The position numbers and the translations under genes were made by a program. Shown piece by piece: positions 4,470 through 27,650 of a stretch of 64,000 nucleotides of DNA. The notes under the pieces were generated by a model. That model saw only the letters and a program-made list of their open reading frames with translations, ran no database searches and was not told the origin of the DNA. Position 1 is the first letter of the stretch. Each line of letters starts with the position of its first letter. This DNA comes from Kytococcus aerolatus (GTDB taxonomy: Bacteria; Actinomycetota; Actinomycetes; Actinomycetales; Dermatophilaceae): the NCBI RefSeq assembly GCF_900187395.1, contig NZ_FYEZ01000001.1, positions 124,001-188,000 on the forward strand, written 5' to 3'.

Positions 4470-5291
4470 ATGACCGAGAACGCCCCCACTCGTCAGAGCA
4501 CCGGCGCGATGGAGCAGCCCCCCACCGGCGCCGGCCTGCTCGAGGGCAAGACCATCCTGGTCACCGGTGTCCTCATGGAGTCCTCCATCGCCTTCCACGT
4601 GGCGCGCCTGTGCCAGCAGCAGGGTGCGAGCGTGATCCTCACCGGGTTCGGCCGCGGGATGAAGCTCACCCAGGCCATGGCCCGCCGCCTCCCGGTGGAG
4701 CCGGTCGTGGTCGAGCTCGACGTCACCGATCAGGAGCAGCTGGACAGCCTCGCGGACCGTCTCCGAGAGCACACCGACCGCCTCGACGGCGTGATGCACT
4801 CCATCGGCTTCGCCCCCGAGGGAGCCTTCAACTTCCTCGAGGCCACCTGGGAGGAGGTCTCCACCGCCATCCAGATCTCCAGCTACTCGCTGAAGTCCCT
4901 GGCCGTGGCCGCCAAGCCGCTGATGGGCGAGGGCTCGGCCGTGGTCGGCATGACCTTCGACGCGCGCTACGCTTGGCCGGTCTACGACTGGATGGGCGTG
5001 GCCAAGGCGGCCTTCGAGTCGGTGAACCGCTACCTCGCCCGCGACCTGGGCCCGGAGGGCATCCGCTGCAACCTGGTGGCCGCCGGCCCGATCCGCACCA
5101 CCGCCGCCAAGTCCATCCCGGGCTTCCAAGCCTTCGAGGACAACTGGGACACCCGCGCCCCGCTGGGCTGGTCGGTTTCGCTCTCCGAGCCGGCCGCCCG
5201 TGCCTGCGTCGCCCTGTTCTCCGACTGGTTCCCGGCGACCACCGGTGAGATCGTCCACGTCGACGGTGGAGTGCACTCCACCGGTCAGTGA
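4470..5291 (+). CDS. fabI: enoyl-ACP reductase FabI/InhA
   Basis: The 273-residue protein is an extended-type SDR with the InhA/FabI active site: Tyr172 and Lys179 in YDWMGVAK, matching Tyr158/Lys165 of mycobacterial InhA, plus the family motif LVTGVLMESSIA near residues 30-41. It catalyses the last reductive step of fatty-acid elongation and is the target class of isoniazid and triclosan. A strong ribosome binding site (GGAGGA) lies just before the ATG. The first ~20 residues are a low-complexity extension not normally present. It follows fabG and is probably co-transcribed with it. Confidence 0.93.
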   Translation: MTENAPTRQSTGAMEQPPTGAGLLEGKTILVTGVLMESSIAFHVARLCQQQGASVILTGFGRGMKLTQAMARRLPVEPVVVELDVTDQEQLDSLADRLREHTDRLDGVMHSIGFAPEGAFNFLEATWEEVSTAIQISSYSLKSLAVAAKPLMGEGSAVVGMTFDARYAWPVYDWMGVAKAAFESVNRYLARDLGPEGIRCNLVAAGPIRTTAAKSIPGFQAFEDNWDTRAPLGWSVSLSEPAARACVALFSDWFPATTGEIVHVDGGVHSTGQ

Positions 5292-5343: not shown

Positions 5344-7506
5344 ATGACTGCACCCACCGTGGCCGTGTCGGAGGTCCGCCTCCTGGAGGGGCCGAACCTG
5401 TACTACACGCGCCCGGCGGTGAAGGTGATGCTCCGGGTGGAGGGCATGGCCGAAGCCGAGCGCGCCGAGTGCCTGCGGGTGGCCGAGCTCCTCGGCCTCC
5501 CGCGCACCGTCCCGGGGCGCCCCGGGACGCAGCAGCGATCCCGCTTCCTCGTCCGTCTGGCGCGCCGGGTCATCCGGGCCCTCGGCCGGGAGGTGGGACT
5601 GGGGGAGATCACCGCCCGGGGACGCACCGGGGACGACCCGGCCGACATCACCGTCGCCTTCCGGTGGTGGCGGCGGGGGACCGGGGAGGCCATGGGGCGG
5701 GCGATCGGACCGCTGCTGGAGGCGATGTGGGCCGACCCGGAGCGCTTCGAGGAGCAGCTGGAGCAGGCGGCGCGCCAGGTGCTCGCCGCCGACCCGGGCG
5801 CGGAGCCGGTGGCCTTCCGGCCGAAGGTCCCGGTGGTCTCGGTGACCGGGACCAACGGGAAGACCACCACCACCCGTCTCCTGGCGCACATCGCGATGGA
5901 GGCCGGACGCACCGCCGCCTGGTCGTCCACCGACGGGGTGCTGCGACAGGGCGAGTGGCTGGTGAGGGGCGACTACTCCGGACCCTCCGGCGCCCGGCTG
6001 GCGCTGGAGGGTCCGGAGGTGGAGGTCGGCATCCTGGAGACCGCACGGGGCGGGCTGCTCCAGAAGGGGATGGGGGTGCGCTCCAATGACGTCTCGGTGG
6101 TCACGAACGTCTCCGCCGACCACCTGGGGAGCCACGGGATCAACACCCTCGACCAGCTCGCCGAGGTCAAGGGGATCATCACCCGGGTGACCCGTCCCAG
6201 CGGCTGGGTGGTCCTCAACGCCGACGACCCCCGGGTGTGGGACATGCGCCACCGGGCCACCGGCCAGGTCTGGGCCTTCAGCCTTGACCCCGCGAACCCC
6301 GCCCTGCGGGCCGCGGTGGAGGGCGGAGGGCGGGCCATGACCGTGCTCGACGAGTCGGTGGCGATGATCACCGGGGTGGGGGACCCGCGCCACGTCGTGC
6401 CGCTGGCCGAGGTCCCCATGACCCTGGGCGGTCTCTCCCGGCCGAACGTGGCCAACGTGCTCGCCGCCGCCGCGGCGGCGATCGGTCTCGGCCTCAGCCG
6501 CGAGGAGGTCGCCGCCGGGCTGCGCACCTTCCAACCGGACCGGCACCACAACCCGGCCCGCATGAACACCTTCCGGTGGCGCGTCCCGGACGGTGAGGCC
6601 ACGATCGTCTGCGACCTCGCGCACAACGAAGCCGGCGTCGAGACACTGCTGGAGGTGGCGCGGGGGCTCGTCCTGCCCGGGTCGGAGGTGCACCTGACCC
6701 TGGGTGGGCTGGGGGACCGGACCGACGAGATCCTCGAGGCGATGGGGGTCGTCGCGGGACGCGGCGCCGACCGGACCCACCTGGTGTCCAAGGACCACTA
6801 TCTGCGGGGCCGCGAGGTGGAGGAGGTCTTCGACCACCTGCGCACCGGGCTGGCCAGCGTCGGCCAGGTGCCCACCGCCACCTGGCCGGACGAGGTGGCC
6901 GCGCTGGCCGGGGTCACGGAGATGCTGCGGGACGGTGACGTCCTGGCCTTCACCGTGCACGACCGCCGCGACGAGGACCTGGCCTGGCTCGACGAGCACG
7001 GGGCCGAGGAGCTCTCGGCCGAGGAGGTCGCTCGGCTCGTGAAGCGCTCCCGGGGTCAGCACGAGCTCGACGCCTGCTTCACGGCCCTGGCGGAGGGACC
7101 CACCCCCGAGCGGGTGTCCGGCCTGCGGGAGCTCGTCGCGTCCCGCCCCGGGGACGCCCGGGTCCGCTTCGAGCTCGCCCGGGCCCTGGACGCCGCCGGG
7201 GAGGCGGACCAGGCGATCGCGACGCACGAGGAGGCCCTGGGCCTGGGGCTGCGGGAGCCGCAGCGCTTCGTGGCCCTCATGGAACGGGCGATGGCGGCCC
7301 GGGCCGGGGGCCGCGTCGCGGAGGCGTCGACCTGGGCACGGGAGCTCACCGAGCGTTACGACGACTCGGCCGCCGCGGCAGCGTTGGCCGCCCTGACGGC
7401 CTTGGATGCCGGCCGACCCGAGCGTGCGGCGACCGACGCGGTGGAGTGGCTGCTGCACCACTCCACCCACCCGGCGGACTGGGAGTTCACCGGCCGGCTG
7501 GTCTGA
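5344..7506 (+). CDS. CphA-like Mur ligase domain protein with C-terminal TPR-like domain
   Basis: The 720-residue protein has three parts. Residues 1-160 include LLEGPNLYYTRPAV, reminiscent of the RVYRGPNLW start of cyanophycin synthetase. Residues 165-560 are a Mur-ligase domain with the ATP-binding motif TGTNGKTTT (about 170-178), the LETARGGLL and TNVSADHLG motifs seen in the ligase half of CphA, and a C-terminal ligase segment. Residues 570-720 are helical, with repeats like a tetratricopeptide domain. The ATP-grasp domain of CphA is missing. The gene ends 7 bp from the convergent cphA stop. I infer a role linked to cyanophycin or a related branched peptide, but the substrate is unknown. 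TAGGCT (5331-5336) with a 7-nt spacer marks a leaderless start. Confidence 0.8.
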   Translation: MTAPTVAVSEVRLLEGPNLYYTRPAVKVMLRVEGMAEAERAECLRVAELLGLPRTVPGRPGTQQRSRFLVRLARRVIRALGREVGLGEITARGRTGDDPADITVAFRWWRRGTGEAMGRAIGPLLEAMWADPERFEEQLEQAARQVLAADPGAEPVAFRPKVPVVSVTGTNGKTTTTRLLAHIAMEAGRTAAWSSTDGVLRQGEWLVRGDYSGPSGARLALEGPEVEVGILETARGGLLQKGMGVRSNDVSVVTNVSADHLGSHGINTLDQLAEVKGIITRVTRPSGWVVLNADDPRVWDMRHRATGQVWAFSLDPANPALRAAVEGGGRAMTVLDESVAMITGVGDPRHVVPLAEVPMTLGGLSRPNVANVLAAAAAAIGLGLSREEVAAGLRTFQPDRHHNPARMNTFRWRVPDGEATIVCDLAHNEAGVETLLEVARGLVLPGSEVHLTLGGLGDRTDEILEAMGVVAGRGADRTHLVSKDHYLRGREVEEVFDHLRTGLASVGQVPTATWPDEVAALAGVTEMLRDGDVLAFTVHDRRDEDLAWLDEHGAEELSAEEVARLVKRSRGQHELDACFTALAEGPTPERVSGLRELVASRPGDARVRFELARALDAAGEADQAIATHEEALGLGLREPQRFVALMERAMAARAGGRVAEASTWARELTERYDDSAAAAALAALTALDAGRPERAATDAVEWLLHHSTHPADWEFTGRLV

Positions 7507-7513
7507 GGAGGGC

Positions 7514-10291
7514 TCAAGCCAGGTCGGGGTCCGGCACCATGAGCACCCCGGCGCGGGGGCTCGGCTGGGCGCGGTGGGTGTAGTCCTCCAGCAGCTGCAT
7601 GACCTCGGCGGCCTGGTCCACCGCCATCGCGACGACGTCGCCGGGCTCGGCCAGGTCGAGCGCCCGCCGGCAGGCCTCCTCCTCGTCCGGCACCACGAGC
7701 ACCTCCGTGCCGTGGCCGCCCGTGGTGGCCGCCTCGCGCAGGGCCTCGGCCACCAGCTGGGCGGACTCACCGGCGGGTCGCCCGCGCAGGTTGTCGTCCT
7801 CCCGCACCACGACCACGTCGAACCAGGGCGCCACCACGGTGCCGAGCTCCCGGATGTCCTCGTCGCGTCGGTCCCCGGTCGCGCCGAGCACGCCGATGCG
7901 CCGCACCTGCTGCCCCTCGGCGGCCGCCTGCTCGGCCCGGGCCGACACGAACTGCCCCAGGCTCTCCACCCCGGCCGGGTTGTGGGCGTAGTCGACGAAG
8001 ACCTCGGCGCCGCGCACCTCCACGCGGTTGAGGCGTCCCGGGGAGAGATAGCTGTCCGGGACGAAGGAGCGCAGCCCCGCCCGGATGTCGTGCAGGGGTG
8101 CCCCGGCGGCCCAGGCCGCGCCGGCGGCGGCCATGGCGTTGGCCACGTTGAACCGGGCCGCACCGTTGTAGGTGGCCGGGATGGTGTGCGTCCACGCCAG
8201 CGGCATCCGCCGCTTGCCCTCGCAGAGCACGATCCGCTCACCCCGGGGGGTGGCCTCCAGGAGCACCGCCCGGCCCCCGCGGCCGAGGCGCTTCTCCACG
8301 AAGAGGTGCTCGGGACTGCCCGGCTCGGCCAGCGAGAAGTACATGACCTGCCCGCGGCACCGGTGCCTCATCTCGCGGACCAGCGGGTCGTCGGCGTTGA
8401 GCACCGCCGTGCCGGACCGGGGCACGGCCGAGACGACGACGCTCTTGACCTGTGCCAGCTGCTCCACGGTGTCGATCCCGGCCAGGCCGAGGTGGTCGGC
8501 GGTCACGTTGGTCACCACGGCCACGTCGTTCTTGTCGTAGCCCAGGCCCTCGCGCAGGATGCCGCCGCGCGCCACCTCGAGGACGGCGAAGTCGACGCGC
8601 GGGTTCTGCAGCACGGTGCGGGCCGACTTCGGCCCCGAGGCGTCCCGCTTGATGACGAGCCGTTCGTCGATGGCGACCCCGTCGGTGCTCGTGAGCCCGA
8701 CGTGCTTGCCGGCGCCGCGCATGATGTGGCCGATCATCCGGCCGGTCGTCGTCTTCCCGTTGGTGCCGGTCACCGCGACGATCGGCACCCGCGCCGGGGA
8801 GCCGGGCGGGAAGAGCAGGTCGAGGACCGGCTTGGCGATGAACTGCGGCTCGCCCTCGGTGGGGTGGGTGTGCATCCGGAACCCGGGAGCGGCGTTGACC
8901 TCCACGATCGCCCCACCGACCTCGGAGACCGACTGCGTGATGTCCGGGCTCATGAAGTCGATGCCGGCGATGTCCAGCCCGACGATGCGGGCGGCCTCCT
9001 CGGCGATGTCGACATTGTCGGGGTGCACCTCCCAGGTGCGGTCGATCGAGATGCCACCGGTGGACATGTTGCCGGTGCGCACCAGCGGCACGTCCAGTCC
9101 CTCCTCGGGGACCGACTCCGGGGTGTACCCCTGCTCGGAGAGGTAGGCCAGGGCCGCCTCGTCGAGGGCGATGCGGGTCAGCACCTTCTCGTGACCGACC
9201 CCGCGTCGCGGGTCCTCGTTCTCCCGGGCCACGAGCTCGGCGATCGTGGAGCGACCGTCCCCGACCACCTGGGCCGGGACGCGCTCGGCGACGGCGACGA
9301 CCTGCCCGCCCACGACCAGGAAGCGGTAGTCCTTCCCCCGGACGTAGGACTCCACCACGACGACCCCGCGGCGGGACTGCGCGACGGCGCGCGGGAAGGC
9401 GTCCCGGACCGCGGCGGCGTCGGCGAGGTCGAGCTGGACCCCCCGCCCGTGGTTGCCGTCGAGCGGCTTGACGACCACCGGGTACCCGATGCGCTCGGCG
9501 ACAGCCACCGCCTCCGCGGCGTCACGCGTCGTCCCCGAGCGGGGAACCGGCAGGCCCGCCCCGGCCAGCAGCGTGGTGGTCATCGACTTGTCGCCGGCCA
9601 CGTCCACGGCCAGGGCGGAGGTGCGGGAGGTCATCGTGGCGCGGATGCGCTGGGCGTGGACGCCCTGCCCGAGCTGCACGAAGGAGGCGCTGTTGAGCCG
9701 GAGCCAGGGGATGTCGCGGGACTCGGCCTCGTCGATGATCGCCTGGGTGGAGGGGCCGAAGGCGACGCGCTGGGCCAGTCGGAGGAAGTCGTCCAGCTCG
9801 GCCTCGAAGTCGAGGGGGGCCGCCACGGGGTCCACGCAGTGGTTGACGATGCGGACGGCGAGCTCCCCGGCCGCCCGCCCCAGGCGCTCCTCGGAGTAGG
9901 CATAGATCATGTTGTAGCGGCCCGGGTGGCCGGGCACGGACCGGGTCTTGCCCCGGGTCACCCGGTGCCCGGCCAGGTTCTGCAGCTCGAGGGCGACGTG
10001 CTCGGCGATGTGCCCCATCCAGGTGCCCTCGTGGAGGCGCTCGACGAACCCGCCCTCGCGCCCGGTGGAGCAGGTGTGCTTGTCCAGCGTGGGCAGCAGA
10101 CCGGTCAGCCGCTCGGTGAAGCCGTCGATCGCCGAGGACGGGTACTCCTCGAGGATCCCGAGGTCCACCACGAGGTGCATGGCCTGGTCGTAGGACCACA
10201 GGTTCGGGCCGCGGTACACGCGGGTGGAGACGATCGTGAGCTCCGGGACGGGCCCCTGCGGATCACGGGTGGTGCTGCGGGGGTCGTTCAC
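7514..10291 (-). CDS. cphA: cyanophycin synthetase CphA
   Basis: The protein is 925 residues, the usual length of CphA1. It has the N-terminal domain (RVYRGPNLWSYDQAMH near residue 24), a central ATP-grasp domain (VVKPLDGNHGRGV about residues 270-282), and a C-terminal Mur-ligase domain with TGTNGKTTTGR near residue 505. The enzyme polymerises aspartate and arginine into the nitrogen-storage polymer cyanophycin, the ATP-grasp domain adding aspartate and the Mur domain arginine. The start is the GTG at 10291, which overlaps the cphB stop (GTGA); coding further upstream in this frame is antisense to cphB and not protein-like. cphB-cphA is therefore a coupled operon. Confidence 0.95.
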   Translation of the reverse strand: MNDPRSTTRDPQGPVPELTIVSTRVYRGPNLWSYDQAMHLVVDLGILEEYPSSAIDGFTERLTGLLPTLDKHTCSTGREGGFVERLHEGTWMGHIAEHVALELQNLAGHRVTRGKTRSVPGHPGRYNMIYAYSEERLGRAAGELAVRIVNHCVDPVAAPLDFEAELDDFLRLAQRVAFGPSTQAIIDEAESRDIPWLRLNSASFVQLGQGVHAQRIRATMTSRTSALAVDVAGDKSMTTTLLAGAGLPVPRSGTTRDAAEAVAVAERIGYPVVVKPLDGNHGRGVQLDLADAAAVRDAFPRAVAQSRRGVVVVESYVRGKDYRFLVVGGQVVAVAERVPAQVVGDGRSTIAELVARENEDPRRGVGHEKVLTRIALDEAALAYLSEQGYTPESVPEEGLDVPLVRTGNMSTGGISIDRTWEVHPDNVDIAEEAARIVGLDIAGIDFMSPDITQSVSEVGGAIVEVNAAPGFRMHTHPTEGEPQFIAKPVLDLLFPPGSPARVPIVAVTGTNGKTTTGRMIGHIMRGAGKHVGLTSTDGVAIDERLVIKRDASGPKSARTVLQNPRVDFAVLEVARGGILREGLGYDKNDVAVVTNVTADHLGLAGIDTVEQLAQVKSVVVSAVPRSGTAVLNADDPLVREMRHRCRGQVMYFSLAEPGSPEHLFVEKRLGRGGRAVLLEATPRGERIVLCEGKRRMPLAWTHTIPATYNGAARFNVANAMAAAGAAWAAGAPLHDIRAGLRSFVPDSYLSPGRLNRVEVRGAEVFVDYAHNPAGVESLGQFVSARAEQAAAEGQQVRRIGVLGATGDRRDEDIRELGTVVAPWFDVVVVREDDNLRGRPAGESAQLVAEALREAATTGGHGTEVLVVPDEEEACRRALDLAEPGDVVAMAVDQAAEVMQLLEDYTHRAQPSPRAGVLMVPDPDLA

Positions 10292-11271
10292 GGGGTGTCT
10301 CCCTCGTCGGGCGTGGCAGCGCGCTCCATGGCCCGCTCGAGCCGGGCGATGTCGGAGGCCTGCTGGCGGATGGTGAAGATCATGTCGTCCTGCGCGTGCT
10401 GCTCGACGAAGTGCGCGAGGCGGTGGGCGTCCAGGTCGAAGACGGCCCCGGCAGGCAGGGTGTGCACCACGGCCCCCGAGAGCAGCAGGGGCGCGCCGTC
10501 GGCCGCCTCGTGGGCGTCGGTGTAGGCGCGGCCCGCGTCGACGAGGAAGACGGCGCCGGCACCGTGGACGCTGAAGCGGCGGATCCGTTCCCCGGTGGCC
10601 GAGCGTCCCTCGACGAGCTCGATGGCCGTGTCCTCGTCGATCCCCAGTCCCCACAGGGCGGGGGAGACGGCGACCACCGACATGAGGCGTCCGTAGCGGC
10701 CGCGCTGGTCGAAGTGCTGGTCGAGGACGACGTCCTCCACCAGTCCGAGGCCCTGGGAGACCTGGGCGGTGCGTTGACGCGGGGTGAGCCCCTCCTCCCC
10801 GAGCGAGATCATGTGCCGGCTGAGGATGGACGCCCCGGCCGACGTACCTCCCACGACCGCTCCGCGGGCGTGGGCCCGGAGGATCGCCTCCCCGGTGGGG
10901 GTCCCCACGAGGTACTGGCTGAGCTTGAGCTGGTTCCCGCCGGTGAGGAAGACGCCGGTGGCCCGGTCGAGGGCCTCCACCCAGCGCGCGTCGTGCGCAT
11001 CCTCCCGGGAGGAGGGTGCGACGACGACGGTGCTCGCGGCCCCCAGACGCTCGAAGAGGGTCGTGTAGGTCCCGCCCGCCTCGGACTCGAAGGCCGAGGC
11101 GGTGGGGATCACCACGACGTGGCCGTCCTCGGCGCCGGCCAGGGAGGCGAAGCGACGGAGCACCTTCATCATGTCCCGCCGGTCCTCGGCGCCACCGATG
11201 ATCATGAGCCGGCGGACCTCGCCGATGGCCTGCTCTCCGGGGTCGGGGACGGTGCCGGGGCGCGGAGACAT
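10288..11271 (-). CDS. cphB: cyanophycinase CphB
   Basis: The 327-residue protein is a peptidase S51 family member with the nucleophile motif GGTSAGAS and the early RLMIIGGAEDR motif. CphB cleaves cyanophycin to beta-Asp-Arg dipeptides. Length and motif order agree with bacterial cyanophycinases. The ATG at 11271 has TACAGT (11279-11284 on the minus strand) 7 nt upstream, giving a leaderless start; a GTG nine bases earlier overlaps that box and was rejected. It is the first gene of the cphB-cphA operon, so synthesis and breakdown are encoded on one transcript. Confidence 0.94.
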   Translation of the reverse strand: MSPRPGTVPDPGEQAIGEVRRLMIIGGAEDRRDMMKVLRRFASLAGAEDGHVVVIPTASAFESEAGGTYTTLFERLGAASTVVVAPSSREDAHDARWVEALDRATGVFLTGGNQLKLSQYLVGTPTGEAILRAHARGAVVGGTSAGASILSRHMISLGEEGLTPRQRTAQVSQGLGLVEDVVLDQHFDQRGRYGRLMSVVAVSPALWGLGIDEDTAIELVEGRSATGERIRRFSVHGAGAVFLVDAGRAYTDAHEAADGAPLLLSGAVVHTLPAGAVFDLDAHRLAHFVEQHAQDDMIFTIRQQASDIARLERAMERAATPDEGDTP

Positions 11272-11292
11272 GCCCTCCACTGTAGGTGGGGC

Positions 11293-20055: not shown

Positions 20056-20139
20056 GTCCGGGTGGCGGAATGGCAGACGCGCTAGCTTGAGGTGCTAGTG
20101 CCCTTAACGGGCGTGGGGGTTCAAGTCCCCCTCCGGACA
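20056..20139 (+). tRNA. tRNA-Leu (anticodon GAG)
   Basis: The sequence folds as a class II tRNA: a 7-bp acceptor stem (GTCCGGG with TCCGGAC, one G-T pair), an anticodon stem CTAGC/GCTAG closing the loop TTGAGGT, a long variable arm, and a T arm with GTTCAAGTC. The anticodon GAG reads CUC and CUU leucine codons. CCA is not encoded. A strong promoter precedes it and an intrinsic terminator follows. Confidence 0.95.
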
Positions 20140-20145
20140 CCGATA

Positions 20146-20180
20146 AAGAGCCCGGTCCCACCACGTGGGGCCGGGCTCTT
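20146..20180 (+). terminator. intrinsic terminator of tRNA-Leu
   Basis: A GC-rich hairpin (GAGCCCGGTCCCAC paired with GTGGGGCCGGGCTC, one wobble pair) begins seven bases after the tRNA and ends in CTTCGT. Confidence 0.85.
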
Positions 20181-20266
20181 CGTCATGCAGGTCGCCACAG
20201 ACCAGATTCGTCAGTGGATGGGACGCCGATCCACAATCACTGGCCTCCAGCAACCCTCCGACCACG

Positions 20267-20298
20267 GCGGAGGCCCAGCCCGCAGGACGGGCCTCCGC
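20267..20298 (-). terminator. terminator of the secreted nuclease/phosphatase-fold gene
   Basis: 10-bp arms GCGGAGGCCC and GGGCCTCCGC pair across a 12-nt loop, 21 bp past the stop codon of the minus-strand gene. Confidence 0.7.
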
Positions 20299-20318
20299 GT
20301 GCTGCACGGGGTGCCGTC

Positions 20319-21188
20319 TCACCGGCCGCGGTGCACCTCGCGCGGGTGCGGCAACTGCAGTTCCGCCACCACGGGGTAGTGGTCGGAGGAGTACACCAGC
20401 GGCACCGTTGCACGCAGCGGGGTGATCTCCTTGGAGGCCAGAACGTAGTCAATGCGGCGCAGCGGGTTGCCCGGCGCGTAGGTGAGGCCGTCACCCTCGC
20501 CAACCAGCGGCCACACGTCCGTGAGAATCCGCGTGTACTCCTCGTGCTCCGTGGACCCCGGGGCCGCGTTCAGGTCGCCGAGCACCACCGTCGGGTTGCT
20601 CTGAGCAGCGACCAAATCGTTGACCACCGCAAACTGCTTCGTGCGGTACTCCGCGTCAACGTGGGTGAGGTGGGTGTTCATGACCGTCACCGGCACGCCA
20701 CGGACCTTCACAGTTGCCTCGGCCACACCACGCTGTTCCCCACCCTGGTGGTTGGGCAGCATGTGGTTCTCGCAGTCGGACAACTTGTACCGCGAGAGAA
20801 TGGCGGTGCCGTACTGGCGGCGCTCGGTCCGACCCCCAGCAGGGTCCTCGTCGAGGTTCGCGGCGTAGCAGTAGTGCAGGCCGAGGCGGTTGGCCAGCCA
20901 GGCACTCTGGTCGACGAACTCGGAACGCTCGCCCCAGTGGTTGTCGACCTCCTGCAGGGCGATGACGTCGGCGTCGAAGGAATCGATGTCGCGCGCGATG
21001 CGCTCCAAGTCGAGCACATCGAAGCGGTCGGCACCGTGGTGAATGTTGAAGCTCACCACGGTGAGCTTGCGCTCTGGGTCACCCGCCTTGCCCATGTGCT
21101 GGGTCGGTGCGGCAGTCACGGGGGCGGACAAAGCGGTGGCGGCAACGGCGGCCACCAGAGTGGTCAGGGTGCGTCGAGAAAACGCCAT
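20319..21188 (-). CDS. secreted endonuclease/exonuclease/phosphatase family protein
   Basis: The 289-residue protein starts with a twin-arginine-like signal peptide (FSRRTLTTLVAAVAATALSA). The EEP-fold motifs follow: SFNIHH, ALQEVDNHWG, an NTHLTHVD strand, VVLGDLNA, and the terminal SSDHYPVVAE. These place the metal-binding and catalytic Glu, Asp and His of the DNase I/exonuclease III/sphingomyelinase superfamily. Substrate could be DNA, a phospholipid or a sugar phosphate. The ATG at 21188 is supported by TGGAG eight bases upstream; an upstream in-frame extension would disrupt the signal peptide. Confidence 0.88.
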   Translation of the reverse strand: MAFSRRTLTTLVAAVAATALSAPVTAAPTQHMGKAGDPERKLTVVSFNIHHGADRFDVLDLERIARDIDSFDADVIALQEVDNHWGERSEFVDQSAWLANRLGLHYCYAANLDEDPAGGRTERRQYGTAILSRYKLSDCENHMLPNHQGGEQRGVAEATVKVRGVPVTVMNTHLTHVDAEYRTKQFAVVNDLVAAQSNPTVVLGDLNAAPGSTEHEEYTRILTDVWPLVGEGDGLTYAPGNPLRRIDYVLASKEITPLRATVPLVYSSDHYPVVAELQLPHPREVHRGR

Positions 21189-21489
21189 GAGGGTCTCCAG
21201 TTGGTACAGGGGGCATGGTGCCAACCGGACGTTAAGCAGACCCTGTGACGTGGACATGAACCCGACGTAAAGGGCATTTCACCGGGCGTTCAACAGCGAA
21301 TCACCCAGCGCGCCGTAGTCAGGGGTGTTCCCCACGATCCCTCAACCTCGGAGACGGCCCAAGACCTGGGGCCACCGAATGCGGTCGGACGACGCTCTCG
21401 TGCCGCGAGGACAGTCCTGCGGACACGTTCTCTTCGTACCCCAGTACCTGTTGAAGCTGGGGACTGCGACGCAGAGTTGCGACACCACG
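21189..21489. other. intergenic region, no gene recognised
   Basis: About 300 bp separate the EEP-family gene from the thioesterase terminator. I see no coding pattern, RNA gene or clear repeat. The promoter of the minus-strand EEP-family gene must lie in its left part. Confidence 0.5.
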
Positions 21490-21535
21490 GCGACTGCTGG
21501 CCCGGCCCCTGAAAAGGGACCGGGCCAGCAGTCGC
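21490..21535 (-). terminator. terminator of the acyl-CoA thioesterase gene
   Basis: 16-bp perfect arms (21490-21505 and 21520-21535) enclose a 14-nt loop, 20 bp past the thioesterase stop codon. Confidence 0.85.
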
Positions 21536-21554
21536 CTGACCTGTGGACCCGGCC

Positions 21555-21992
21555 TCAGCCCTCCGTCGGGAGCTCGCGCGGCCGGCCGTCGCCGTCGGTC
21601 GCCACGAAGGTGAACTCCGCCCGGGTGATGAGGCGCTCGTCCTCCGCGTGTCGGTCCCGCGCCCAGGCCTGGACGGAGACCCGCATCGAGGTGCGGCGGG
21701 ACCCGGTCAGGTGGGCGTAGACGCTCAGCTCCGAGCCGACGACCACCGGCCGGTGGAAGGACATGGAGTCGACGGCGACGGTGACCGCGCGCCCGCGGGC
21801 CCGACGGGACGCCACCGACGAGGCGGCCAGATCCATCTGGGCCATCAGCCACCCACCGAAGATGTCGCCGTACATGTTGGCGTCACCGGGCATGGCGGTC
21901 ACCCGGATGGTGGGCTCGAGGTGCTCCGGTGGCGTGGCCGGCTCCGCCGGGTCGTCCGCGGGCGCAGGTGCGTGCAGAGTGTTGCTGGACAT
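21555..21992 (-). CDS. acyl-CoA thioesterase, hotdog fold (YciA/BFIT type)
   Basis: The 145-residue protein has the hotdog thioesterase signature: MPGDANMYGDIFGGWLMAQM near residues 34-53 with the catalytic Asp, then VDSMSFHRPVVVGSEL and a late ITRAEFTFVA strand. Such enzymes hydrolyse acyl-CoA to free acid and CoA. AAGGGG lies upstream of the ATG. The gene stands alone between a cobalamin riboswitch and a terminator, so the B12-responsive leader appears to control only this gene, which is not a usual target. Confidence 0.9.
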   Translation of the reverse strand: MSSNTLHAPAPADDPAEPATPPEHLEPTIRVTAMPGDANMYGDIFGGWLMAQMDLAASSVASRRARGRAVTVAVDSMSFHRPVVVGSELSVYAHLTGSRRTSMRVSVQAWARDRHAEDERLITRAEFTFVATDGDGRPRELPTEG

Positions 21993-22044
21993 GGGTGTCC
22001 CCTTCGTTCTGGCCCGGGTCTCCCCGCCGGGCGAATCGGCGTCG

Positions 22045-22220
22045 ACCGAGGCAGGTCTCCTGGCTCGCGGGTCGGCACCGCCCCCTCGGCCTTCCCGCCC
22101 GTCGGGGCAGTGGCCGTCCTGCAGGGGGCGACTCTCCGCTCACAGTTGCGGGGTCAGCGCCGGCTTCGGCAGTCACCTGCCGTCCCGGCTTCCCTCTTCG
22201 CCACCCCGGCTGGGGTGGAC
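22045..22220 (-). promoter_or_regulatory. cobalamin riboswitch upstream of acyl-CoA thioesterase
   Basis: Read on the minus strand, the segment holds the ordered conserved blocks of the cobalamin aptamer: GGGAAGCCGG (22194-22185), CCGGCGCTGACCCCGCAACT (around 22163-22144), the B12 box GCCACTG (22114-22108), and GAGCCAGGAGACCTGCC (around 22065-22049). A 5' hairpin (CACCCC/GGGGTG) lies at about 22203-22218. The aptamer ends about 55 nt before the thioesterase start codon, close enough to sequester its ribosome binding site. Confidence 0.93.
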
Positions 22221-22232
22221 CTCGGCGCGAAC

Positions 22233-22238
22233 AGCATA
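22233..22238 (-). promoter_or_regulatory. -10 element of the riboswitch transcript
   Basis: TATGCT on the minus strand lies just upstream of the aptamer, so transcription would start near 22226, at the 5' edge of the riboswitch. Confidence 0.55.
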
Positions 22239-22384
22239 GGGGGCCTGGCCCACGGTTCACCGGAGGACTGAGGCGAACCTGCGCGGCGAGGAGACGGGCC
22301 TGTCGGGCTGTGAGCGCCAGGGGCAGCCGAACGACAGCAGCCAACCCGCCGGCCACACGCTGATCACCTGCTCAAGGGACTGCT

Positions 22385-22480
22385 GAGGGTTTGGTTGATA
22401 CCTGATCTGGGTGGGGATGTCGAAGCAGTAGGTGTCTTCGTCGATCATCCGGTGGATGCCGCGGGCGTGGTGGTCGTCAT
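22385..22480 (-). pseudogene. csoR: csoR remnant (copper-sensing repressor), broken
   Basis: From the ATG at 22480 the first codons read MTTTTPAASTG, a CsoR-like N-terminus, then stop. In another frame the same DNA continues as GIHRMIDEDTYCFDIPTQI, which matches the region around the first copper-ligand cysteine of CsoR. The connecting helix and the second half with the His-Cys ligands are missing, so about 30 residues are deleted and the frame is lost. It lies 17 bp after the copB stop, the usual place for csoR in such operons. A functional repressor cannot be made from this copy. Confidence 0.75.
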
Positions 22481-22497
22481 GATCTGTCTCTCACGGT

Positions 22498-24654
22498 TCA
22501 GGAGCGGTCGAGGATGCGGTTGGTGCTGGATTCGGGTGTGAGGTCGAGGCGGCGCAGCAGTTGCGCGTTGAGGGCCACCACGACGGTGGAAGCCGACATG
22601 AGGATCGCCCCGACGCTCATCGGCAGCACGAATCCGATCGGTGCGAGAATGCCCGCCGCGAGAGGCACAGAGATGAGGTTGTAGCCAGCGGCCCACCACA
22701 GGTTCTGCTTCATCTTGCGGTAGCTCGCACGCGACAGCTCGAAGACCGACAGCACCGAGCGTGGGTCCGAGCTCGCGAGGATGACCCCTGCCGAGCCGAT
22801 TGCGACATCGGTGCCGGCGCCGATGGCGATGCCCACATCGGCCTGTGCGAGGGCGGGGGCGTCGTTGACGCCGTCCCCGACCATCGCGACCTTGCGGCCC
22901 TCGTCTTGGAGCTCCTTGACCTTGGCGGCCTTGTCTTCCGGTCGCACACCGGCGAACACGCGGTCGATGCCGAGATCCTTTGCCACTGTGTCGGCGACCG
23001 CTTGGGCGTCACCGGTGATCATCACGACCTGCGCGCCGCGGGCATGCAACGCGTCAACAGCGTCACGAGACTCGGTTCGTATCTCATCGGCCAACCGCAA
23101 CGCCCCGATGACCTCGCCGTCGGCGAGGATGTGGAGGATGATCGCTCCTTCTTCGCGCCACTGGTCAGCTATCGGCAGTTCGCTGGCCGAGTGCTGCTGG
23201 AGTAGATACGGGCCGCCGACTTCGATGACCGTCCCGTCAACGGTGGCCTTGACCCCGATTGCAGGGGAGGAGGAGAAGTCCGAGGCCCTCGGTATCTGGA
23301 CCTCTTGGGTGCTGGCGGCTCCGGTGATCGCTCGGGCCAGGGGGTGCTCGCTGTCGGCCTCGGCGGCCGCGGCCAGGGCGAGCACCCGCTGCTCGTCGTG
23401 ATCGTTCGCGGTGTCGATGGCGGTGACGGTGGGCTCGCCCTTGGTGAGAGTGCCGGTCTTGTCGAAGAGCACGGCGTCGACGGTGCGCATGGACTCCAGC
23501 GCGAGCCGGTCCTTGATGAGCACGCCGCCGCGGGCGGCGCGCTCGGTCGCGATCGAGACCACCAGCGGGATCGCGAGGCCCAGGGCGTGGGGGCAGGCGA
23601 TGACGAGCACGGTGATGGTGCGGACCACCGCGTCGTCGGGAAGACCAATGAGGGACCATACGAGCGCGGTGATGACGGCCGCGCCGAGGGCGAACCAAAA
23701 AAGCCAGGCCGCGGCGGTGTCGGCGATGCGCTGGGCGCGGGAAGAGGAGGCCTGGGCGTCGGAGACAAGTTTCTGGATGCCCGCCAGGGCGGTGTCCTCG
23801 CCGGTGGCGGTGACCTCGACCCGCAGTCCGGAGTCGGTGGCGATGGTGCCGGCGACGACCTGCTCGCCGGTCTCTCGGCGCACGGTCTTGGACTCCCCGG
23901 TGACCATCGACTCATCCATGCTGGCGCTGCCATCGACGATGCGCCCGTCCGCGGGCACCGAGGCGCCGGGCCGGACCACCACCACATCGCCGACAGCGAG
24001 GTCTGCTGGGGCGACTCTCACGATGTTCTCGCCGTCGACCTTCTCGGCCTCATCGGGCAGTAGGGCGGCCAGGGAGTCCAGGGCGGAGGTGGTCTGGGCC
24101 AGGGAGCGCATCTCGATCCAGTGGCCCAGCAGCATGATGACCACCAGCAGAGCCAGCTCCCACCAGAAGTTGAGCTCGTCGCTGAGCAGGTGCAGGCTCG
24201 CGCCCCAGGAGGCGATGAAGGCGACCGTGATCGCCAGCGCGATCAGCAACATCATGCCGGGCTTGCGGGATCGGATCTCGCCCAGTCCACCGGTGAGGAA
24301 GGGCCGGCCGCCCCACACGTACATGATCGTGCCCAGGGCCGGGGAGACCCAGCGCACCCAATCGGCGTTCGGGAGGGGGTAGCCGGTGAGGTGGGCGAAC
24401 ATGTCGTTGAAGCCCACGACCGGGATCGCGATGACGAGCATTATCCAGAACAGCCGCCGGAACTGGCCGACATGATCACCATGCCCGCCATGACCACTAT
24501 GACCTGCGTGGTCGTGGCCGCCGTGATCCTCATGGTCGGCTTGGTCGTGGCCGCCATGAGACTGGTGTGCCGAGTGGTCGTCGTGCGAGTGGTGGCCGGC
24601 GTGCTCGTGCGCTTCAGCCTCGGCGGCCCCGTGGTGGGTCTGCTGGTCGTTCAT
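22498..24654 (-). CDS. copB: CopB-type heavy-metal P1B ATPase
   Basis: The 718-residue protein has a histidine-rich cytoplasmic N-terminus (about residues 7-62, many HGGH/HDH clusters) instead of HMA domains. Membrane helices, TGES near 252, the ion-path motif ACPHALG near 350, DKTGTLT near 398 and the GDGVNDAPAL hinge follow. CPH rather than CPC is the mark of the CopB subgroup, associated with Cu(II)/Cu(I) or silver export. It lies in a copper-resistance cluster below a DUF1541 lipoprotein gene and above a broken csoR. Confidence 0.93.
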   Translation of the reverse strand: MNDQQTHHGAAEAEAHEHAGHHSHDDHSAHQSHGGHDQADHEDHGGHDHAGHSGHGGHGDHVGQFRRLFWIMLVIAIPVVGFNDMFAHLTGYPLPNADWVRWVSPALGTIMYVWGGRPFLTGGLGEIRSRKPGMMLLIALAITVAFIASWGASLHLLSDELNFWWELALLVVIMLLGHWIEMRSLAQTTSALDSLAALLPDEAEKVDGENIVRVAPADLAVGDVVVVRPGASVPADGRIVDGSASMDESMVTGESKTVRRETGEQVVAGTIATDSGLRVEVTATGEDTALAGIQKLVSDAQASSSRAQRIADTAAAWLFWFALGAAVITALVWSLIGLPDDAVVRTITVLVIACPHALGLAIPLVVSIATERAARGGVLIKDRLALESMRTVDAVLFDKTGTLTKGEPTVTAIDTANDHDEQRVLALAAAAEADSEHPLARAITGAASTQEVQIPRASDFSSSPAIGVKATVDGTVIEVGGPYLLQQHSASELPIADQWREEGAIILHILADGEVIGALRLADEIRTESRDAVDALHARGAQVVMITGDAQAVADTVAKDLGIDRVFAGVRPEDKAAKVKELQDEGRKVAMVGDGVNDAPALAQADVGIAIGAGTDVAIGSAGVILASSDPRSVLSVFELSRASYRKMKQNLWWAAGYNLISVPLAAGILAPIGFVLPMSVGAILMSASTVVVALNAQLLRRLDLTPESSTNRILDRS

Positions 24655-24689
24655 GCTCTGTCCGTTCCTTCATGCCCGGTTCGTGTCAG

Positions 24690-25268
24690 TTAGGAAGCGG
24701 GCTGGATCTCGCTGTCGACGACCCACTTATGGTTGGTCATCTTCATCCCGTCGGCCTCGTAGTCGACGACATAGACGGTCTCCTCAGTCGAGGACGCGAT
24801 CGTCGCCGTCGCGCCGTCCATGCCTTCCATGTGGTCGGCGGTCACCGTCACCTCGGTGCCGTCGTCGAGACGGGCGTCACCGGCGCCGTCGAGCTCTTCC
24901 TGAACGACCCACTTGTGATCGGTCACGGGATCTCCGCCGTCGACCGGGGTGTAGTCGATCGCGTAGGTGTAGGTGTCGTAGGCGCCGACGATGGTGGCGC
25001 TGGCACCGTTCATGCCCTCCATGTGGTCAGCCGTCAGAGTGACTTCGGTGCCGACCGGGTATTCGGGGTCGGTGGCCTCTTTCATGCCCTCGGGGACCGG
25101 GCCGCCGTCGGCGGGATGCTCCATGCCGTCGTGGCCCCCATGCCCGCCTTGTGCGTCCTCGCTCTGCGATGGAGTTCCTGCCTCGTCGTTCGCGGTGGAG
25201 CAGCCTGCCAGGGCAAGGCTTCCGCCGAGGATCCCGACGGCGACGAGGATGCTGATGCGTCTGTTCAT
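24690..25268 (-). CDS. DUF1541 (YdhK family) lipoprotein
   Basis: The 192-residue protein has a lipoprotein signal peptide with lipobox LAGC (Cys23), a His/Gly-rich linker, and two tandem DUF1541 units. Each unit carries a TADHMEGM block and a HKWVV block. The family is commonly found next to copper exporters and is thought to bind metal outside the membrane. It ends 36 bp before copB on the same strand, suggesting co-transcription. Confidence 0.9.
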   Translation of the reverse strand: MNRRISILVAVGILGGSLALAGCSTANDEAGTPSQSEDAQGGHGGHDGMEHPADGGPVPEGMKEATDPEYPVGTEVTLTADHMEGMNGASATIVGAYDTYTYAIDYTPVDGGDPVTDHKWVVQEELDGAGDARLDDGTEVTVTADHMEGMDGATATIASSTEETVYVVDYEADGMKMTNHKWVVDSEIQPAS

Positions 25269-25324
25269 CTCGATACTCTCCTATTGGTGTGAACCGACCG
25301 GCGCTGGTGCGCCGGATAGGGGGT

Positions 25325-25358
25325 GGTTCCGCGCCTCCCGGTCGAGAGGCGCGGAACC
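25325..25358 (-). terminator. hairpin between HMA gene and DUF1541 gene (terminator or attenuator)
   Basis: 13-bp perfect arms (25325-25337 and 25346-25358) lie 15 bp past the HMA stop codon. It may reduce read-through into the DUF1541-copB part of the operon. A second, smaller hairpin (CCGGCGC/GCGCCGG) follows before the next gene. Confidence 0.7.
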
Positions 25359-25372
25359 ATGTCCACGGGCGG

Positions 25373-25522
25373 TCAGGCCGCGTTGGCGTAGCGGTCGGGG
25401 CGGGCGCTGACCTCGATGCCGGTCCCGCCGGCGATCTCGGAGACCTCGGAGCGGATCGCGGTCTCGCAGTGCCCGCAGGTCACGTCGGTCACCCGGTACT
25501 CGTTCGTGGTCGTCGCGCTCAT
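25373..25522 (-). CDS. truncated CopZ-like heavy-metal-associated protein
   Basis: The 49-residue reading frame starts like a CopZ chaperone, with the copper site TCGHC at residues 16-20, but ends after EVSARPDRYANAA. HMA domains normally run about 65-70 residues. The last two beta strands and one helix are missing, so the protein is probably unstable or a frameshifted remnant. The ATG at 25522 lies just downstream of a CsoR-type operator. It heads the copper operon. Confidence 0.6.
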   Translation of the reverse strand: MSATTTNEYRVTDVTCGHCETAIRSEVSEIAGGTGIEVSARPDRYANAA

Positions 25523-25560
25523 AATCCAAACGCCCTTGTTTGTGTACGAGATCTTCAGGC

Positions 25561-25580
25561 TATACCCCAAGGGGGTATGG
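25561..25580 (-). promoter_or_regulatory. CsoR-type operator
   Basis: A near-perfect palindrome, TATACCCCAAGGGGGTATGG, has the TACCCC/GGGGTA halves typical of CsoR operators. It is centred about 48 bp upstream of the truncated HMA gene start, where it would overlap the promoter. The local csoR is broken, so repression would need a CsoR encoded elsewhere. Confidence 0.75.
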
Positions 25581-25581
25581 G

Positions 25582-26000
25582 TCAACGGGTAGATGCGTCC
25601 TCGGGGGTCTCCTGGGCCTGCCCGGTGGGGCGGACGTGACGCAGTCGGGTTGCGGCGATGAGTGCCGCCATAGCGGCGACAACGGCCGAGACGATCGCGC
25701 CGTGTTCAGTCCGCCGGTGAACGCTGCCTGTGCCGCGCCGACCAGCTGCTCGCCGAGTGCTCCTGGCAGCTCGCCTGCGGAGACGAGTGCGCCGTCGATG
25801 CTGTCCGAGGCCGCGGCTGCAGCCTCTGGCGGCAGACCGTCGGGCAGAGTGGACTCGATGTTGCCGCGGTAGGCGGCGATCCCCACGCTGCCGATGACCG
25901 CGACGCCGAGGGAGATGCCCAAGTCGTTCGCGGTGGTCGCGAGCCCGGATGCGCCGCCGGCCTTCACCGGAACGCCGAGAATGCTCCTCATGACTCAGTG
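25582..26000 (-). pseudogene. MFS drug-efflux transporter remnant (EmrB/QacA type, C-terminal part)
   Basis: The frame preserves the end of a 14-helix MFS exporter: SGLATTANDLGISLGVAVIG and the YRGNIESTLPDGLPPEA loop. After FTGGLNTA the frame shifts and the last helix continues in another frame as AIVSAVVAAMAALIAATRLR. The N-terminal two thirds are absent. A truncated, frameshifted pseudogene. Confidence 0.7.
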
Positions 26001-26222
26001 GGCGCCCATGAGCGGAGCGGTACACCTGATGATCCCGACGGTGCGTGCACAGAGTGCGGCACTGGCGACCATCTGGGCACGGTGATGGCGTGCGTGCTCG
26101 CGCTCCTGATCATCCTCATGGTTCTGGTGCCGCCACGGCCGCTGCCCGGATGGATGCACGTAGCCTTCAGATCTATCCTGCGCGTCACTCAAGCGACCCT
26201 CGACACAAAAGAAAACTCATAA
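25998..26222 (+). pseudogene. fragment of a small Cys-rich membrane protein (possibly DUF6153-like)
   Basis: An open segment encodes GACTECGTGDHLGTVMACVLALLI, a CxxC near a His followed by one membrane helix. This resembles the C-terminal part of small actinobacterial membrane proteins found beside copper genes. The upstream part appears to be in a different frame and the C-terminus runs into unrelated sequence. I treat it as a remnant and am unsure of the family. Confidence 0.35.
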
Positions 26223-26234
26223 TTTCCGTACCGC

Positions 26235-27650
26235 GGCAACTGGGCTCATCCCAATCCAGGGTGGGTTCGGAAGCCGCCTGTCTCGAGCAGGCTGCGGGCG
26301 GTGTAGTTGGTGAGGTTGCGGAAGCCGAGGGCGGAGCCGCGTAGGTGTTCGAGGCGGCCGTTGAGGGCTTCGGTGGGTCCGTTGGAGGTACCGGGCCGCT
26401 CGAAGTAGGCCAGGACGTCGGCGGCGCGCTGGTTCAGGGTCCGGCCGAGGCGACGGAGCTCGACGAGGGCCGCGGGCACGCCGTCGCGGAGGGCGTCGAT
26501 GACGGCGGTCATCGCCGCGCGGGCGGTTGCCCGGTCGGGATTGGTGAACAGGACGATGAGTCGTTCTCGTTGGCGGTCGGTGAGCAGGTCCTCTCCGGTG
26601 TGTAGGGTACGCCGGGCCCGGTAGAGCGGGTCGTTCTTGAGGCCGCGGTGGCCGTGGAGGTCTTGCTGGACCCGGCGGCGGCAGGAGTCCAGGGCGTCCC
26701 CGGCGAGGCGCACGACGTGGAAGGGGTCCATCACCGCGACCGCGCACGGGAGCTCTTCGGCGGCTGCGGTCTTGAAGCCGGTGGGGGCACCGCCCGCTGC
26801 GATACTCCGCGTCAGCGGCGCAGCTGGGGGAAACCCATCCATCGCGACCACCTCCACGGCGTCACGCCACGCCTGTGGCCGCTCGGCGAGCCAGGTCTTG
26901 AACGCGGCCTTGGACCGGCCTTCGACCATGTCCAGCAACCGGGCGGGGCCGGTGTCGTCTCGGATCGGGGTGAGGTCGATGATCACGGTGACGTACTTCT
27001 CGCCCTTGTGCGTGTGCCGCCACACGTGCTCGTCGACCCCGACCACCTTCACCCCCTCGAACCGGGCCGGGTCACCGATCAGGACGCGCCGGCCCTCGGC
27101 CAGGACGGCGTCGTTGGCGGTGTCCCACGCCACCGCCAACGCCTCGGCGACCCGAGCGATGGTCAGGTGCTGCACGACCAGCGCGAGCAACGCCCAGCGC
27201 AGCCCACCGCGGGAGATCTTGGCCCTCGGCTCCGCCGCCGCAGTGGTGTCCTGCCGCCACATCCGCGCGCAGCCGGTGCACCGGTACCGGCGGACCGCGA
27301 CCAGCAACGTCGTGGGTCGCCACCCGAACGGCTCGTGTGCCAGGCGTCGCGTGACCACGTCGTGCACGGTCCCCTCACAGCCACACCGCCGGCACCACCG
27401 GTCATCATCGACGACCCGGCAGGCCAGCACCGCCCGGTCCGGCTCGAGGCGTTGCCCGGTCACCTCCAACCCGAGGCCGTCGAGGCGGCAGAACGTCGTC
27501 AGATCAGGCGTGGTGCAGGTACCGTCAGGCATGTCGAGGTCTTCCAGGTGGGGAGTGTGAGAACTCCCATCATGTGGAGACCTCGACGCCTACCCCAGGA
27601 CCGACGCGCCGCCCCGCGACCCACCCTGGATCGGGAAGAGCCGGCAACTG
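26235..27650 (-). mobile_element. ISL3-family insertion sequence (copy 1) with 8-bp target duplication
   Basis: The element spans 26243-27642 (1400 bp). Imperfect terminal inverted repeats of about 27 bp begin GGCTCATCCC at the left and GGCTCTTCCC at the right when read inward. It is flanked by the 8-bp direct repeat GGCAACTG (26235-26242 and 27643-27650), the target size of ISL3. It inserted into a DUF305-like gene. Confidence 0.9.
26246..27532 (-). CDS. ISL3-family transposase (copy 1)
   Basis: The 428-residue transposase has an N-terminal zinc-binding region (CRRCGCEGTVHD and CTGCARMW), a helix-turn-helix, and the ISL3 catalytic core with GVDEH, VVAMDGF, a D in MDPFHVV and the NGPTEALNGRLEHLRG motif. 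Compared with copy 2 it has an 18-residue insertion after MDGF and lacks about 22 residues before the last third. Both changes keep the frame; the insertion sits beside a catalytic block, so activity is doubtful. The stop codon lies inside the left inverted repeat. Confidence 0.9.
   Translation of the reverse strand: MPDGTCTTPDLTTFCRLDGLGLEVTGQRLEPDRAVLACRVVDDDRWCRRCGCEGTVHDVVTRRLAHEPFGWRPTTLLVAVRRYRCTGCARMWRQDTTAAAEPRAKISRGGLRWALLALVVQHLTIARVAEALAVAWDTANDAVLAEGRRVLIGDPARFEGVKVVGVDEHVWRHTHKGEKYVTVIIDLTPIRDDTGPARLLDMVEGRSKAAFKTWLAERPQAWRDAVEVVAMDGFPPAAPLTRSIAAGGAPTGFKTAAAEELPCAVAVMDPFHVVRLAGDALDSCRRRVQQDLHGHRGLKNDPLYRARRTLHTGEDLLTDRQRERLIVLFTNPDRATARAAMTAVIDALRDGVPAALVELRRLGRTLNQRAADVLAYFERPGTSNGPTEALNGRLEHLRGSALGFRNLTNYTARSLLETGGFRTHPGLG

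Follow-up and report, generated by a model that had tools for sequence, protein, structure and literature searches.

In a 64,000-nucleotide window of the Kytococcus aerolatus genome (contig NZ_FYEZ01000001.1), the gene adjoining the cyanophycin synthetase gene cphA encodes a relative of CphA that shares the N domain and the Mur ligase (M) domain of that enzyme and lacks its ATP-grasp (G) domain. In CphA1, the G domain adds Asp and the M domain attaches arginine to the Asp side chain. We refer to this N-M-TPR ligase, encoded at 5344 to 7506 on the forward strand as an open frame of 720 residues, as MUR, and use the same name for its distinct subfamily of N-M proteins. Members are mostly 540 to 620 residues long and occur, almost exclusively together with CphA, in Actinomycetota, Chloroflexota, and some Alphaproteobacteria. 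Taken together, the evidence suggests that MUR is an active second ligase of cyanophycin metabolism, working on the polymer or on Asp ends and more likely adding an amino acid other than arginine. We give this reading as a whole a probability of about 0.46, slightly short of an even chance.

Results

MUR is a CphA relative without an ATP-grasp domain

Pfam analysis of MUR identifies Mur_ligase_M at residues 167 to 379 (E = 6.9e-20) and Mur_ligase_C at residues 413 to 535 (E = 7.5e-9), with PF08245 and PF02875 both over cut-off, followed by TPR_5 at residues 607 to 706 (E = 1.5e-7, also over cut-off). No ATP-grasp Pfam model matches at E of ≤1; the adjoining CphA matches several. On the basis of PF08245 and the catalytic residues, the Mur ligase core spans 5821 to 6528 (residues 160 to 395; all features of MUR are on the forward strand) and includes the P-loop TGTNGKTT at 5845 to 5868 (residues 168 to 175), whereas PF02875 and the structural model place the C-terminal lobe (Mlid) at 6529 to 7008 (residues 396 to 555). 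A preliminary description of this DNA, made from the letters and their open reading frames (ORFs), had picked out the motifs EGPNLYYTRP, TGTNGKTTT, ARGGLL and SADHLG, a missing ATP-grasp domain, and TPR-like helices at the C terminus. The motifs are indeed present and the Pfam search agrees on the ATP-grasp domain; the helices are confirmed by PF12688, which scores over cut-off, and by an AlphaFold model (predicted local distance difference test [pLDDT], 93.8; predicted template modeling score, 0.88) in which they run from residue 576 to 719.

The best NCBIfam model for MUR is that of CphA, TIGR02068 (E = 4.8e-104), matched over columns 478 to 849 of 862 only and with 349.1 bits, below the cut-off of 850. 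MUR also scores below the curated cut-offs of the Mur and FolC models (80.8 against 257.3 bits for murE, 54.9 against 212 for murD, 54.2 against 288.6 for murF, 48.8 against 335.1 for murC, and 38.9 against 162.7 for folC), and the MurE of the genome is encoded elsewhere, away from MUR. Scores this far under the cut-offs rule out a MurE or FolC identity, and MUR scores with CphA, as the preliminary description had it. Homologues gathered from dozens of genomes are 43 to 70% identical to MUR over the aligned part, and it is therefore not a chance frame; a related-locus search with the single MUR protein reached only two distant ligases.

The N domain (5344 to 5808, residues 1 to 155) was assigned by hhalign and structural alignment. 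PF18921, the Pfam model for this domain, finds no match in MUR, and hhalign joins the N regions of 74 MUR and 81 CphA proteins with an E value of 2e-7; the alignment covers 130 columns and is 18% identical. The MUR model aligns with TeCphA1 (7wae_A) with a Z score of 53.4 and a root mean square deviation (rmsd) of 2.8 over 522 residues (model residues 6 to 553), spanning the absent ATP-grasp domain, compared with Z scores of ~33 for MurC and MurE. In the model, the N and M domains thus have the same relative placement as in CphA, minus the ATP-grasp domain. A model of an alphaproteobacterial MUR (pLDDT, 82.2; built from an alignment that included actinobacterial relatives) aligns over residues 23 to 581 with residues 1 to 872 of a CphA1 chain (Z, 37.7; rmsd, 6.1), and its N part aligns too.

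The ligase site is conserved and the zinc site of the N domain is lost

All 74 actinobacterial MUR proteins have N171, K173, T174, T196, E232, R235, H260, K276, R406, and H427; in a wider set of 98, T174 and T196 are each replaced by Ser in eight. Seven of the invariant residues are the counterparts of TeCphA1 N497, K499, T500, T522, E558, R731, and H748, which make contact with ATP or its phosphates or with Mg (PMC9427784). MUR thus carries the hallmarks of the Mur superfamily, namely, the P-loop, the Thr and Glu associated with Mg, the His of ADH, the Lys, and the C-terminal lobe, suggesting that it is very likely catalytic. A pseudogene or dead enzyme is disfavored by the open frame and the invariant catalytic residues.

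In CphA, the N-domain motif Cx19HxxEH marks a slow-acting zinc endo-cyanophycinase, which generates primers, and this zinc site occurs in ~80% of CphA1 proteins (PMC9262961). The motif is present in 80 of the 81 CphA proteins that we collected, including that of the window, and HxxEH is found in none of the 74 MUR N regions. An arginine aligns where the first His of the CphA motif stood, and R65, R71, R78, R92, and R94 of MUR are each kept in 70 to 74 of the 74 sequences. On average, the N region carries a net charge of about +7.6 in MUR (lowest value, 0) and -5.5 in CphA; for the M domain, the averages are -10.6 and -1.4, respectively. A more basic groove with the run of acids lost throughout MUR does not fit these data, as the M domain is more acidic overall and the acids are partly kept outside Actinomycetota.

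Substrate-site positions differ between MUR and CphA

The M domains of 98 MUR and 95 CphA proteins were compared. The set includes 74 of each from Actinomycetota, labeled by the ATP-grasp domain and hence independently of any motif, together with 18 MUR rows from the Chloroflexota set and six plasmid or alphaproteobacterial MUR rows. Here and in the tree of M domains (below), 24 of the ORFs were sorted into MUR and CphA by DxSGPxS. For that motif the label is circular; the presence of HxxEH agrees with it in 24 of 24. The pattern GD[YFW][ST]GxxG[AG] occurs in 97 of 98 MUR proteins and in no CphA (0/95; Actinomycetota alone, 73/74 versus 0/74), whereas Dx[ST]GPxS[AG] occurs in 94 of 95 CphA proteins and in no MUR (0/98; Actinomycetota alone, 74/74 versus 0/74). 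In the window, this MUR signature reads GDYSGPSGA (5968 to 5994, residues 209 to 217). The second changed motif, [YFWH]LRxR, is present in 96 of 98 MUR and 2 of 95 CphA proteins (73/74 versus 2/74 in Actinomycetota) and lies here within KDHYLRGR (6790 to 6813, residues 483 to 490), the counterpart in the alignments of CphA EDxxLRGR.

At the level of single residues, S554 of CphA is Gly in all 98 MUR proteins, the residue ahead of it in its motif turns aromatic, and R807, kept in 94 of 95 CphA proteins, is Thr or Ser in 83 of 98 MUR proteins across all three bacterial groups. The E-D pair ahead of LRGR in CphA becomes mostly H-K in actinobacterial MUR, and the position of D810 is Ile or Leu in 63 of these 74. 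The position of SuCphA1 E607, a residue that touches cyanophycin at the N-domain zinc site (PMC9262961), is Glu in 88 of 95 CphA proteins and Arg or Lys in 83 of 98 MUR proteins. This change, like the two altered motifs, is seen in all three bacterial groups. D210, R235, and both LRxR arginines are common to nearly all MUR and CphA rows. The EDxxLRGR loop aligns with the DDPx loop of the genome's own MurE, which we take to bind the incoming amino acid. Because positions on both substrate sides are changed, the amino acid added by MUR would more likely be one other than arginine, and we lean slightly toward MUR not being an arginine ligase. The same substrate-site reasoning yielded no single candidate for the added amino acid.

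MUR occurs in genomes that encode CphA

We scored 7 to 11 candidates per genome among 97 relatives, two in the class and in Alphaproteobacteria, four in the phylum sample and in Chloroflexota, and three in Pseudomonadota. The weak end of long match lists was left out, and the distribution counts are thus among the matches listed; a deeper search (12 to 33 candidates each) covered only the CphA-positive genomes without MUR. The sets of relatives, class, and phylum overlap and the species are related, and their counts are therefore not independent. (G, L, and f numbers are our handles for genomes, loci, and families.)

Among the 97 relatives, a full MUR gene is present in 39 genomes, all 39 of which encode CphA; one incomplete genome (G029, 58% complete) has a contig-edge MUR fragment without CphA. 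In the class (394 genomes), CphA scores over cut-off in 37, of which 30 have MUR, and no MUR-type match is listed for the 357 CphA-negative genomes at two candidates per genome. Within a single family (f45), MUR accompanies CphA in 14 of 14 genomes and is absent from the matches listed for the other 22. The seven CphA-positive class genomes without MUR remain so after the deeper search with up to 33 candidates: three (G105, G128, and G145) have two CphA proteins each, and four (G230, G381, G364, and G457) have a divergent CphA. In the first three, all in family f29 (loci L102 to L107), there are two cphA-cphB pairs on separate contigs, and the second CphA forms its own branch.

The phylum sample (198 genomes) has CphA over cut-off in 15 and MUR in 13 of these, with MUR also in G601, where CphA is in pieces; in G650 and G611, MUR itself is in broken or contig-edge pieces. 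Among 201 Chloroflexota, MUR is found in 18 of the 22 genomes with CphA, and the matches listed for the remaining 179 include no MUR. The deeper search raises the count to 21 of 22 by adding G1412 (at a contig edge), G1504, and the divergent G1437; G1370 is still without MUR. In Alphaproteobacteria (385 genomes), MUR is found in two of five CphA-positive genomes, with a third, G1022, in the deeper search, and in Pseudomonadota (299 genomes) it is found in 2 of 19. These patterns tie MUR to cyanophycin with high probability. The window gene itself has all the features that we use to define the subfamily: N and M domains without a G domain, GD[YFW][ST]GxxG, and co-occurrence with CphA.

One relative, G030 (84% complete, 4% contamination), carries two MUR-cphA loci (L037 and L071) on separate contigs and is possibly a mixed bin.

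Gene order and descent

The stop codon of MUR ends at 7506 and that of cphA begins at 7514 on the opposite strand, leaving 7 bp between the convergent genes. The cphA gene (7514 to 10291, reverse strand; TIGR02068, 1139.6 bits) encodes a full N-G-M cyanophycin synthetase with the N-domain Cx19HxxEH motif, and its GTG start overlaps the stop of cphB (10288 to 11280, reverse strand), which encodes a cyanophycinase (TIGR02069, 213.5 bits, over cut-off). Upstream, MUR begins with an ATG at 5344, 52 nt after the stop at 5291 of a fabI-like gene (4470 to 5291, forward strand; PF13561 neighbor group) that is a common neighbor. The arrangement given in the preliminary description, with MUR ending 7 bp from cphA and cphB next, agrees with these coordinates, and the co-location is conserved: all 69 actinobacterial loci with both genes have them convergent. 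In Chloroflexota, the two genes adjoin and converge in 10 of 18 genomes, lie on separate contigs in 7 of 18 (some of which may reflect contig breaks), and share a contig in G1419, where ~3.8 Mb separates them. FabG-like, SerB-like, and FabI-like neighbors recur in 51, 50, and 46 of 92 loci, respectively; adjacency alone could therefore be inherited, and the unlinked Chloroflexota genes are for this reason the better evidence of a functional tie. An ABC-transporter group (PF00664, PF00005) lies ~5.8 kb upstream of MUR in 45 of 92 actinobacterial loci.

In a tree of 83 M domains, one branch with support of 99/96 parts 41 MUR from 42 CphA proteins, ruling out a recent deletion of ATP-grasp from the adjoining cphA. 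With the genome's own Mur ligases as root, the end branches are 4.5 to 5.7 long and the order of MUR and CphA is unrooted. MUR may have lost ATP-grasp or may be an older N-M form. The preliminary description had called the protein a CphA-derived single-ligase enzyme; it is a single-ligase relative of CphA tied to cyanophycin, and the 99/96 split speaks against its being a recent offshoot of the adjoining cphA.

The TPR tail (7051 to 7503, residues 570 to 720; PF12688 and AlphaFold model), which in the preliminary description was proposed to dock a partner and may do so, is a lineage-specific add-on outside the subfamily core as judged by its distribution. Of 76 MUR loci, 38 match the tail; these belong without exception to families f1 and f5, and three f1 members (L066, L068, and L069) are without a match. 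The 33 MUR proteins of other families, trimmed at both ends, have 529 to 620 residues. Small separate TPR proteins, mostly of 157 to 219 residues, in the same and related genomes resemble the tail, suggesting that it was probably gained by fusion.

Comparison with known systems

MUR shares with CphA1 (TIGR02068; 7lg5, 7lgq, and 7wae) the fold and placement of the N domain, the Mur core and lid, the ATP and Mg residues, the P-loop, ADHLG, the conserved Lys, and the LRxR arginines. It differs in the absence of ATP-grasp and HxxEH, in the altered GDxSGPxS and EDxxLRGR motifs, and in its position on the other side of the 99/96 branch. CphA2, a ligase of dipeptides that has lost its Mur P-loop and lid (PMC9427784), is likewise a CphA relative with one working ligase left and is the reverse of MUR, which has the Mur P-loop and lid and no ATP-grasp. 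MurE has the Mur fold in common with MUR, whose N domain is of the CphA type rather than the MurE type.

Shorter second copies adjoining cphA are also found in 12 of 19 CphA-positive Pseudomonadota (e.g., G858, G948, and G881). Unlike MUR, these tandem copies have the N and ATP-grasp domains and lack the Mur lid; their matches open with the CphA profile and stop near column 720 (at 625 in one copy). Closer to MUR are plasmid proteins annotated as "Mur ligase family protein" in Shinella, Ruegeria, and Roseateles, which have GDYSGPxG and YLRGR and fall on the MUR side of the tree; ATP-grasp models find no match in the two that were scanned (Shinella and Ruegeria THAF33). These plasmid genes (alphaproteobacterial, with one labeled Roseateles) differ in being arranged on the same strand as cphB-cphA-MUR rather than convergently, and their products differ in an N domain that Pfam misses and in partly kept acids near LRxR. 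A Legionella adelaidensis plasmid protein, WP_058462805.1, resembles MUR in having N and M domains, no ATP-grasp match, and a gene beside that of a cyanophycinase, but it retains HxxEH along with CphA-like motifs and falls with CphA in the tree, apparently representing a separate loss of ATP-grasp. This Legionella gene (L182:3326-5194, plasmid NZ_LR134428.1) also has a gene for an isoaspartyl peptidase nearby, and the stretch shown contains no full cphA. Deinococcus plasmids (L180 and L181) encode CphA-like "Mur ligase family" proteins whose ATP-grasp and N matches are weak; the CphA-like gene of L180 is annotated as two pieces beside a complete cphA.

Elsewhere in the window, a tRNA-Leu(gag) gene at 20056 to 20141 precedes a region of reduced GC content (66 to 68% versus ~73%) that encodes an E1-E2 type ATPase (22498 to 24654), an ISL3 transposase (26246 to 27532), IS481-like integrases (30334 to 31290 and 34606 to 35610), and an IS4/5-type transposase (32284 to 33228). 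The region from 20056 to 36000 is probably an insertion sequence-rich island.

Discussion

The reading that we favor is that of an active second ligase. The groove between the N and M domains would hold an Asp-ended chain, either cyanophycin or a short beta-Asp precursor, as D210 and R235 are common to CphA. The M domain would phosphorylate the carboxylate and then join an alpha-amino acid to it, so that MUR would cap, decorate, or diversify cyanophycin ends. The preliminary description had foreseen capping or modification and also extension of the polymer, the last of which is unlikely because extension of the backbone belongs to the ATP-grasp domain of CphA (PMC9427784), which MUR lacks. The altered substrate motifs, the loss of the N-domain zinc site, and the spread over three bacterial groups did not figure in that description.

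Several observations weigh against this reading. Both the substrate and the activity of MUR are predictions from sequence, and the residues of CphA taken to select arginine are assigned by their position. The acidity of the M domain as a whole does not favor the simple picture of a basic groove that receives an acidic ligand. The charge reversal at the position of SuCphA1 E607 may merely follow the loss of the zinc site, since that residue contacts cyanophycin there. The changes near LRxR are also uneven across groups: Asp or Glu stands at the D810 position in the six plasmid or alphaproteobacterial MUR rows, Glu at 482 is kept in these six and in 12 of the 18 Chloroflexota-set rows, and Asp at 483 is kept in 5 of the 18. 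A one-residue gap by the motif depends on the alignment, with K483 facing E829 or D830. The divergent MUR proteins of G1022 and G1437 have Ala or Met ahead of LRGR; that of G1022 keeps GDRRDED, and the CphA of the same genome has Ala for Ser in DxTGPxS. Seven of the 37 CphA-positive class genomes and 17 of the 19 CphA-positive Pseudomonadota are without MUR, which is therefore not needed for cyanophycin as such. Finally, in engineered cells CphA by itself can incorporate Lys, ornithine, citrulline, or Glu (PMC8050183), so that extra amino acids need no second ligase and an unusual polymer composition alone would not prove the case for one.

The best-surviving alternative, although we consider it unlikely, is that MUR is a helper arginine ligase that carries out the M-domain reaction of CphA, arginylating Asp residues left bare by CphA or making beta-Asp-Arg. 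Its closest relative is the CphA M domain, it occurs in cyanophycin genomes, the two families have D210, R235, and the LRxR arginines in common in nearly all rows, and some of the acids around the LRxR motif persist in Chloroflexota and Alphaproteobacteria. Against these similarities stand the replacement of S554 by Gly in every MUR protein, the aromatic residue ahead of it in its motif, and the exchange of R807 for Thr or Ser in most of them (83/98). Less probable still is a regulator or scaffold whose N domain and groove (and here the TPR tail) would bind cyanophycin or CphA, with catalysis secondary or absent. The retained N domain and N-M arrangement, the arginine-rich character of that domain, and the tail in the window's family are consistent with such a role, but half of the MUR loci (38/76) are without a TPR match and a dead enzyme would not keep its catalytic residues invariant over 74 sequences.

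MUR could instead produce an isopeptide of its own, perhaps from Asp or Glu, for storage or use alongside cyanophycin. We regard this as improbable; the arginine-rich N domain and the altered positions on both substrate sides would suit it, but we saw no ATP-grasp partner of its own, the M domain is more acidic than that of CphA, and the common neighbors are mostly of housekeeping types (FabG, FabI, SerB-like, MoaA, and SURF1), although the ABC-transporter group recurs in 45 of 92 loci. An unrelated cell wall or folate ligase that sits beside cphA through inherited gene order, as the recurring FabG-, FabI-, and SerB-like neighbors might allow, is scarcely credible given the MurE and FolC scores, the MurE encoded elsewhere, and a co-occurrence with CphA that holds for unlinked genes and within family f45 (14/14 versus 0/22 listed).

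In the literature searched, which covered cyanophycin together with Mur ligases, ATP-grasp, and paralogs and from which subscription papers were mostly outside, no function is assigned to MUR. The word "ligase" does not occur in the main text of a survey of cyanophycin gene clusters (PMC10206079). Ten groups of cyanophycin ligases (Fuser and Steinbuchel 2007, as cited in PMC3646047) may include MUR-like sequences; PMC3646047 itself counts 19 groups, and its supplements list "cyanophycin ligase-like proteins." In the Tetrasphaera group, cphA and cphB are reported in 48 of 69 genomes, and the part of that paper available to us leaves a MUR-type gene unmentioned (PMC9123174). Supposing that the family of the window is the same, the "shorter cphA copy" of published Tetrasphaera work is probably MUR. 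Cyanophycin stores nitrogen and is a candidate means of recovering it, and wastewater Tetrasphaera are discussed as producers (PMC10687191, PMC9123174).

If a second ligase modifies cyanophycin in whole bacterial groups, the composition of the polymer there would need fresh measurement, and the "two cphA copies" of expression work would be two enzymes to separate. MUR would also be a new biocatalyst for isopeptide chemistry, and it is a natural case in which to test how the three domains of CphA came together. A wider and doubtful possibility is that the "cyanophycin" of Actinomycetota, Chloroflexota, and some Alphaproteobacteria is not pure Asp-Arg and that a dedicated second ligase, until now counted as a short cphA, adds another amino acid to Asp ends or side chains, setting the length, solubility, or anchoring of the granules. 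MUR may also preserve the N-M ancestor of CphA, into which ATP-grasp would have been inserted later.

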